From the IMG/VR virus record IMGVR_UViG_3300020401_000083, positions 1-24,731 of that record: a DNA stretch of 24,731 bases; one strand, 5' to 3'. This stretch comes from a virus. A program made the translations under genes and the position numbers. Shown here in pieces: positions 18,039 to 20,810 of this stretch (positions are counted from its first letter, which is position 1; every line of letters begins with the position of its first letter). Below the pieces are notes generated by a model that did not search any database, was not told the origin of the DNA, and saw only the letters and a list, made by a program, of their open reading frames with translations.

Positions 18039-18422
18039 TTACTTTACTTGTTTCTTCTGGTAATCTGCTATCGCGGCCTTTATGGCATCCTCAGCCAGCA
18101 CTGAACAATGTATCTTTACTGGTGGAAGAGCCAACTCTGTGGCGATTTCTGTATTCTTAATTTCCCTTGCTTCGCCCAGTGTTTTGCCTTTAACCCACTC
18201 AGTAACAAGAGAACTACTAGCAATAGCAGAGCCACAGCCGAACGTCTTGAACTTGGCGTCATCTATTGTTCCTTGGTCGCTTACTTTAATTTGAAGTTTC
18301 ATGACATCGCCACAAGCAGGTGCACCCACTAGTCCTGTGCCTACGTCAGTATCTTCTTTGTCCATAGAACCTACGTTCCTTGGATTCTCATAATGGTCAA
18401 GTAGTTGTTTACTATATGCCAT
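18039..18422 (-). CDS. iscU: iron-sulfur cluster assembly scaffold IscU
   Basis: 127 aa from the ATG at 18422, chosen because GGAG (18429-18432) lies 6 nt upstream; an in-frame ATG at 18476 would run into the previous gene. Cluster ligands sit at the same residue numbers as E. coli IscU: Cys37 and Asp39 (APACGD), Cys63 (FGCGSA), His105 and Cys106 (IHCSVLAED). The LPPVK motif (99-103) recognised by the HscA chaperone is intact. IscU assembles Fe-S clusters on sulfur from IscS and hands them to client proteins. No iscS, hscA or fdx is present here, so host partners would be needed. Last gene of the minus-strand operon. Confidence 0.95.
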   Translation of the reverse strand: MAYSKQLLDHYENPRNVGSMDKEDTDVGTGLVGAPACGDVMKLQIKVSDQGTIDDAKFKTFGCGSAIASSSLVTEWVKGKTLGEAREIKNTEIATELALPPVKIHCSVLAEDAIKAAIADYQKKQVK

Positions 18423-18436
18423 ATCTATCTCCGTTG

Positions 18437-18766
18437 TTAATAATCTTTTTGCATTTTCTTTAGTGTTTCTTTCCAATCATAATCAGGATTAGGAGCATAC
18501 GGTACCATCATTGCTCCTGGACATCTATCATCTTTTCCTGTTACGATTGTTTCACTGCTTTTACCTGCACCTAAATATATGCACACTAGGTTGTCACCTA
18601 TGTGTCCCATATAAACTCTACGGGCGACAGTCATCTTTACCTGTTCTCTTTCGCCCCGTCTTATTTGTTGTTCGTAAGTATAAGGTTTAGTTGCTCCGTA
18701 TGTTTTCGCTCCGGCAAATGCATCAGTCCAAGATAGTAAAGCAATAACCATAGGGACATATATCAT
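18437..18766 (-). CDS. small exported phage protein
   Basis: 109 aa. The first 18 residues (MIYVPMVIALLSWTDAFAGA) look like a cleavable signal peptide with AFA before the cut. The mature part is basic and has two Cys (LVCIYLG, DDRCPGAM) that could form a disulfide in the periplasm. It starts in an ATGA overlap with the upstream gene and ends 14 nt before iscU. Function unknown; resembles small proteins I recall from T4-like cyanophages. Confidence 0.65.
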   Translation of the reverse strand: MIYVPMVIALLSWTDAFAGAKTYGATKPYTYEQQIRRGEREQVKMTVARRVYMGHIGDNLVCIYLGAGKSSETIVTGKDDRCPGAMMVPYAPNPDYDWKETLKKMQKDY

Positions 18767-20146: not shown

Positions 20147-20158
20147 AATCAAAAGAGG

Positions 20159-20189
20159 TTGACATACCCTACGATTAGTGCTATAAATA
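20159..20189 (+). promoter_or_regulatory. dual promoter: sigma70 TTGACA-N17-TATAAA overlapping late TATAAATA
   Basis: Perfect -35 (20159-20164), 17-bp spacer, -10 TATAAA (20182-20187); the same bases are the first six of a perfect late core TATAAATA (20182-20189). Expected +1 at about 20194-20195, just before the tmRNA. One site could serve both host and phage sigma factors. Confidence 0.75.
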
Positions 20190-20194
20190 AAGAG

Positions 20195-20450
20195 TAATTG
20201 ATGACGTCATTGTATGTCACAAGAGCAGGACCCGGGTGCAATTCCCGGCCACTCCACCAATTCAATATACCCCCTACGGGGTGGAATTAGGATCGACTGG
20301 CTTGTTAAGAATGAAAGAGATTACCGGGTGGGAACTCCGTTAACGTAACAAAACTATAAATGCAAACGATAACTTTGCATCTGAGGAGTATGCACTAGCG
20401 GCATAATCTGACGGGGTTGGCAACTTACCTGGCAACAGAAAAGTTGCGTA
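20195..20450 (+). ncRNA. ssrA: permuted two-piece tmRNA
   Basis: The 3' half comes first: T-arm CCGGG (20232-20236), loop TGCAATT, CCCGG (20244-20248), acceptor strand CCACTCC (20249-20255) and encoded ACCA (20256-20259). An 18-nt intervening segment follows (20260-20277), then the 5' half: GGGGTGG (20278-20284), which pairs with CCACTCC over 7 bp including the G3-U70 wobble recognised by alanyl-tRNA synthetase, the D-arm-like GGATCGACTGG, a CTTGT/ACAAG contact to 20219-20223 (helix P2), the tag frame (20362-20406), and a pseudoknot-forming GCAACTT/AAGTTGC (20420-20426 with 20441-20447). The circularly permuted layout is known in alphaproteobacteria and some cyanobacteria. It rescues stalled ribosomes by tagging the nascent peptide. 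The outer ends are approximate. Confidence 0.9.
20362..20406 (+). other. tmRNA proteolysis tag reading frame
   Basis: The resume codon GCA is at 20362; the frame encodes ANDNFASEEYALAA and ends with TAA (20404-20406). The ANDN start and ALAA end are typical of alphaproteobacterial tags and form a degron for ClpXP-type proteases. A marine cyanobacterial tag would look different, as I recall it. Confidence 0.9.
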
Positions 20451-20479: not shown

Positions 20480-20584
20480 ATGGCTACATATATCACAATT
20501 CTAGGAGCCGCATTGGTCATAAATGCAATCCATGTAGCAATCACAGGACATCAAGTTATGCTCTGTGTTTCTGGCTGTAATTAA
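20480..20584 (+). CDS. 34-aa membrane microprotein
   Basis: ATG at 20480 with AAGGA (20467-20471) at good spacing. The product MATYITILGAALVINAIHVA continues to a Cys-containing end (VMLCVSGCN). Residues 4-21 make a membrane helix. It sits between tmRNA and tRNA-Trp, 6 nt before the tRNA, so it shares their transcript. No family recognised; translation is inferred from the ribosome site and hydrophobic pattern. Confidence 0.5.
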   Translation: MATYITILGAALVINAIHVAITGHQVMLCVSGCN

Positions 20585-20590
20585 TCAATT

Positions 20591-20665
20591 AGGGGTAAAG
20601 TGTTAATGGTTGCACGTCAGACTCCAAATCTGAAAGACAGGGTTCGATTCCTTGTGCCTCTGCCA
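20591..20665 (+). tRNA. tRNA-Trp (anticodon CCA)
   Basis: All arms fold: acceptor AGGGGTA/TGCCTCT (20591-20597, 20655-20661; two G-T pairs), D-arm GTGT/GCAC with GG in the loop, anticodon stem TCAGA/TCTGA with loop CTCCAAA (anticodon CCA at 20624-20626), 4-nt variable loop, T-stem CAGGG/CCTTG with loop TTCGATT, discriminator G and encoded CCA (20663-20665). It reads UGG. The only tRNA I find in the window. Confidence 0.93.
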
Positions 20666-20715: not shown

Positions 20716-20741
20716 TATTTTGCATTCAGGAGGTGAATATT

Positions 20742-20810
20742 ATGACTGGAGCAGAAATAGGAATAACAATATTAGTTACACTTTGGTTAGTTGGAGTATT
20801 GACTAACTAA
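20742..20810 (+). CDS. 22-aa membrane microprotein
   Basis: A perfect AGGAGG (20728-20733) lies 8 nt before the ATG. The product is MTGAEIGITILVTLWLVGVL plus TN: a single hydrophobic helix with one acidic residue near the N-terminus. Own near-consensus promoter and ideal ribosome site argue for real translation. The length fits membrane-acting microproteins (holin-like, regulatory); no family recognised. Confidence 0.6.
   Translation: MTGAEIGITILVTLWLVGVLTN

Follow-up and report, generated by a model that had tools for sequence, protein, structure and literature searches.

A phage two-piece tmRNA gene of the alphaproteobacterial type, with candidate protein genes between the tmRNA halves of related phages

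Two-piece tmRNAs have been reported in the phages Melnitz and Mosig; the count for phage genomes stands at 53, of which 50 are marine or aquatic, and one is present in 17 of 47 Melnitz-like contigs (PMC9004378). The gene analysed here adds a case to this published set (PMC9004378). It lies in a linear fragment of 24,731 nt from a metagenomic virus (IMG/VR record IMGVR_UViG_3300020401_000083, positions 1-24,731; hereafter the window), and it shares with the tmRNAs of Melnitz (OM43 host) and of the Pelagibacter phage Mosig the permuted organization, the alphaproteobacterial type and the location in a marine T4-like phage. The tag of Mosig, whose tmRNA we recovered at 111505-111808 (MT647606.1; L206/L273), differs from that of the window. 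The tmRNA of phage HTVC008M also matches RF01849 (145103-145414, 83.8 bits), and this phage has a related NrdB (64%), but its tag is ANFNEYALAA, its spacer is 49 nt long and it falls outside the closest sequence relatives of the window gene. Alphaproteobacterial ssrA (Caulobacter and Ca. Pelagibacter ubique; RF01849) has the same gene order, acceptor stem, tag region and AACAGAA hairpin, whereas in the window gene the part that follows the tag is shorter and the tag itself differs. The Melnitz tmRNA has been tied to a glutamine riboswitch (PMC9004378). We rejected such a linkage here: Rfam gave no match to this riboswitch in the window, and that of Mosig (92197-92250) is about 19 kb away from its tmRNA and is not part of it. 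HTVC008M contains no glutamine riboswitch detectable by this model.

Rfam covariance searches of the window matched alpha_tmRNA (RF01849) at 20155-20450 with 126.2 bits (E = 2e-34) and tmRNA_permuted (RF04321) at 20194-20406 with 122.2 bits (E = 9e-24), far above the curated gathering cut-offs of 50 and 47 bits, respectively, and ARAGORN predicted a permuted tmRNA with the tag ANDNFASEEYALAA. The search with the alpha model, which the sequence-only reading had proposed as a check, thus gave a strong match, and these results bear out its call of a permuted two-piece tmRNA at 20195-20450 and of the alphaproteobacterial type. The call stands above chance because of the covariance-model E-values and the conservation in relatives described below. 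The minimum-energy fold of the single-strand precursor is of ordinary stability (z = 0.12), with no support beyond chance, and folding energy is therefore no evidence for the call. The gene belongs to a phage genome and has phage genes as neighbours, as indicated by the IMG/VR record, by PHROGs annotation and by a colinear viral relative (L397). We consider it highly probable, on comparative sequence grounds, that the gene is the phage's own and represents a complete two-piece ssrA of alphaproteobacterial type, which would work via trans-translation with host SmpB.

Reading the sequence by hand confirmed that the T-arm/CCA half precedes the tag half (Table 1). The T-stem CCGGG/CCCGG, with the loop TGCAATT, occupies 20232-20248 with five of five pairs, and is followed by the 3′ acceptor strand CCACTCC (20249-20255), A73 and the encoded CCA (20257-20259). 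All seven acceptor pairs form with the 5′ strand GGGGTGG (20278-20284), the third being G-U (G3-U70); the full pairing read earlier from the letters is thus upheld, as is the length of the intervening segment. The tag frame opens with the alanine resume codon GCA at 20362, runs over 14 codons (20362-20403) to a hydrophobic ALAA end and closes with TAA (20404-20406). Downstream of the tag the RNA falls well short of the alpha model, as deletions in the RF01849 alignment show, and with so short a segment some pseudoknots may have been lost; in all other respects the predicted anatomy does not depart from that of a working two-piece tmRNA. By analogy with two-piece tmRNAs in general, the spacer would be cut out. 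It ends with CCCCCUAC before GGGG and is almost identical in L391, L394 and L396. At 20260-20284 it can also pair locally with the start of the coding half, giving a hairpin that would compete with the acceptor stem. The sequence TATAAATA at the promoter is also similar to a late promoter of the T4 type.

Table 1. Features of the window tmRNA locus and of protein genes in the tmRNA spacers of viral relatives
Feature	Position	Strand	Basis
Putative sigma-70-like promoter TTGACA-17-TATAAA	20159..20187	+	Sequence; conserved in viral tmRNA genes and aligned relatives
Acceptor half: T-arm, 3′ acceptor strand CCACTCC, A73, encoded CCA	20194..20259 (5′ end approximate)	+	RF04321/RF01849 alignments; stems checked by script
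18-nt spacer	20260..20277	+	Sequence; removal by processing expected
Coding half: 5′ acceptor strand GGGGTGG, tag region, 3′ hairpin	20278..20450	+	RF01849 alignment
Tag frame ANDNFASEEYALAA + TAA	20362..20406	+	ARAGORN; ANDNFASE[E/D]YALAA in L391, L393, L394, L395, L396
3′ hairpin GCAACTT-ACCTGGCAACAGAA-AAGTTGC	20420..20447	+	Conservation of the AACAGAA stem in viral tmRNAs
tRNA-Trp(CCA), syntenic neighbour	20591..20665	+	ARAGORN; Rfam tRNA, 49 bits; near the tmRNA in 22/22 relatives
MKNPLV...WSICAD... gene between tmRNA halves	L059, L065, L083, L094, L304, L331, L338, L341, L386, most of L431-L508		
DUF2061-like ORF in tmRNA spacer	L397:6627-7139 (colinear with the window); also L418-L422		
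Other small spacer ORFs	L014 (73 aa), L069 (37 aa), L316 (59 aa), L322 (37 aa)		

A DNA similarity search with the window tmRNA against 50,697 phage records returned no match, and relatives were found via the covariance model or IMG/VR, where many contigs carry similar genes. Surveying the locus in 22 viral contigs that encode the neighbouring oxygenase, we found a permuted tmRNA upstream of the oxygenase gene in all of them, 20 by Rfam and two (L393 and L395) by ARAGORN; L395 and L391 derive from one contig, and L391 gives an Rfam match. A tRNA-Trp was likewise present at every one of these loci. With the settings used here, ARAGORN alone recovered seven of the 22 tmRNA genes and the covariance models gave the rest, so that counts of phage tmRNAs based on ARAGORN may be underestimates. 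The sequence-only reading had taken a permuted tmRNA in a T4-like phage to be unusual; this no longer holds, given the published Melnitz and Mosig genes, that of HTVC008M, the complete set of oxygenase contigs and the many IMG/VR examples. The distribution suggests that this T4-like marine lineage carries the tmRNA as a stable trait rather than as an occasional capture.

Conservation extends to structure, promoter and tag. Seven of seven acceptor pairs and five of five T-stem pairs form in the window and in each of the 107 distinct viral tmRNAs listed, counts that are somewhat favoured by the script, which chooses the best-pairing site. Among close relatives the acceptor stem shows a compensatory change (GGGGTGG/CCACTCC versus GGGGTAG/CTACTCC). 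The AACAGAA hairpin, with a stem of at least six pairs, is found in 99 of 103 viral tmRNAs with 59 different arm pairs (about seven expected). Some 100 nt ahead of the point where the acceptor half ends, 70 of 105 distinct viral tmRNA genes have a sigma-70-like promoter, compared with 0.8 expected from shuffles, and 60 of the 105 have TTGAC...TATAAAT in the promoter region (about zero in shuffles); promoter-like sequence is also present in the aligned relatives of the window. The close group at the locus encodes the tag ANDNFASE[E/D]YALAA and a second group ANENFALAA at the same place. Our first viral sample was picked by an 18-mer inside the tag, and the ANDNFA start in that sample is therefore a selection effect; a tag-independent pattern was used as well.

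The genes around the tmRNA encode, according to PHROGs, NrdA, NrdB, a thioredoxin/glutaredoxin-domain protein, a phage exonuclease, a NifU/IscU-like protein, 2OG-Fe(II) oxygenases and an endolysin. Among the matches listed, the top named ones for NrdB are the Pelagibacter phages HTVC008M and Mosig, both of which are listed as Kyanoviridae. This gene content and the NrdB matches agree with the earlier assignment to a T4-like phage. NrdB stands at 64% to both phages, about as near as to cyanophages, and the phage is therefore T4-like and pelagimyophage-related, without being close to HTVC008M or Mosig. The NifU/IscU-like protein (18039-18476, minus strand) is 81-83% identical to IscU of four low-GC alphaproteobacterial genomes of 1.4 Mb; it probably stems from the host and offers a hint to the host's identity. 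In these four genomes the tmRNA sits near a gene with a ThyX motif, an arrangement also described for Ca. Pelagibacter ubique (PMC2704228). The IscU match and the thyX-linked tmRNA in the same genomes make a SAR11-like host likely, although not proven. Two tiny ORFs beside the tmRNA and tRNA-Trp, at 20480-20584 (34 aa) and 20741-20809 (22 aa), contain hydrophobic stretches; a Pfam search of the 34-aa ORF gave no match.

The origin of the gene was approached by comparison with a sample, rather than a census, of tmRNAs, 124 of them viral and 45 bacterial. Every close relative of the window RNA in this sample is viral: scores reach 371-373 bits for the closest viral relatives and 182-188 bits for the next viral tmRNAs, and at most 87 bits for bacteria. 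The best bacterial tmRNAs are ANDNEMALAA genes from the genomes with the 81-83% IscU. This coincidence of the best tmRNA and IscU matches in the same 1.4-Mb genomes might mean that the phage took up the ssrA of its present host recently, in which case the tag would report the host; we regard this as very improbable, and as the least probable of the three alternatives weighed here, as these genomes encode a different tag and fall at or below 87 bits against at least 370 for the viral relatives, and the occurrence in so many viral contigs points to a gene long established in phages. The proposal of the sequence-only reading that the tag is a host-class marker finds no support: low-GC, thyX-linked alphaproteobacterial (SAR11-like) tmRNAs carry ANDNEMALAA, ANESYALAA and similar tags, and phage relatives carry ANENFALAA at the same locus. 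Its suggested check of the tag against SAR11 and other alphaproteobacteria likewise showed that the likely-host genomes encode ANDNEMALAA, unlike the phage. As judged from these genomes, the window tag differs from that of the likely host, and mass spectrometry could therefore tell whose tmRNA tags during infection.

It is also conceivable that the gene is a relic, a host copy that has lost its function, as its short post-tag segment relative to bacterial alpha tmRNAs might indicate. Yet the promoter-like sequence, the tag frame, the acceptor stem with its compensatory change and the 3′ hairpin are all kept across relatives, as is the position in every oxygenase contig, and we find a relic very improbable, though less so than recent capture. 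Another possibility, raised by analogy, is that the phage RNA competes with the host tmRNA: the tag-less tmRNA-like RNA of phage DS6A inhibits the endogenous tmRNA in E. coli (PMC11915505). The window RNA, unlike that of DS6A, has a full tag and stop that are conserved in relatives, and interference of this kind is very unlikely, even if the least improbable of the three. The window tmRNA looks like an old phage gene, and our preferred reading remains a complete, phage-owned tmRNA.

If so, host enzymes that process tRNAs would cleave the single transcript, leaving two pieces joined by the acceptor stem; the RNA would be charged with alanine via G3-U70 by host alanyl-tRNA synthetase and bound by host SmpB. 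It would then free ribosomes that have stalled on broken mRNAs and add (A)ANDNFASEEYALAA, whose ALAA end would be recognised by host proteases. We infer the use of host SmpB because no SmpB gene was found in the 13 phage records searched (the window, the complete Mosig and HTVC008M records and ten viral fragments), where the window, a 24.7-kb fragment, speaks for itself and not for the whole phage genome; the control search was positive in ten of 14 bacteria. The likely benefit would be to keep ribosomes free in lytic growth while host mRNA is destroyed and the demand for rescue is high, and rescue during the destruction of host messages would be the simplest one. Supplementing host rescue and tagging nascent peptides, in line with the ideas of the sequence-only reading, would both be plausible functions, close to those proposed for the Melnitz tmRNA, namely to maintain the machinery of the host or to turn over its proteins selectively (PMC9004378).

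The spacer between the tmRNA halves has a median length of 71 nt in viral genes compared with 18 nt in bacterial genes, where the maximum is 68 nt once two apparent 226-nt spacers, with the true CCACCA inside, are set aside. The ends of the viral spacers pair in 97 of 123 cases (15% in shuffles). ORFs of at least 35 aa occur in the spacers of 15 of the 124 viral and none of the 45 bacterial genes, the two samples having been drawn differently; the window spacer contains no protein gene. One small family of 38-44 aa, MKNPLV..(V/I)S..MF..YI.WSICAD.., is a predicted membrane protein. Searching IMG/VR for this family yielded 182 encoding stretches, of which 80 were kept and 79 examined, one being cut by a contig end. 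It lies between the acceptor and coding halves at 67 of the 78 scorable loci (66 by script, L461 by eye), a proportion favoured by a seed taken from spacers and including several near-identical loci, albeit from a search that was itself tmRNA-independent. Five loci (L482, L487, L489, L507 and L508) have it beside the coding half only, and six beside neither half. Its median dN/dS of 0.16 and the greatest variability at third codon positions make a genuine protein gene under purifying selection very probable. Small ORFs of unrelated sequence, one of them DUF2061-like, fill the spacer of other viral tmRNA genes, among them that of L397.

From these arrangements it seems likely that the spacer of permuted tmRNAs in marine phages is a niche for protein genes, in which one transcript would be both tmRNA precursor and messenger. 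Phage two-piece tmRNAs are themselves already known, and full-text searches of incomplete coverage found no paper, and hence no prior description, of genes inside the tmRNA spacer. Neither the nested 38-aa protein nor the DUF2061-like protein has a match in named phages. The DUF2061-like spacer ORF has a Pfam E-value of 2e-4, just under the curated cut-off. The same ORF is also present away from tmRNA spacers (L416, L417, L423-L427 and L429), and in L416 and L417 it has similar AACACATT...TGTGTTTATGA edges.
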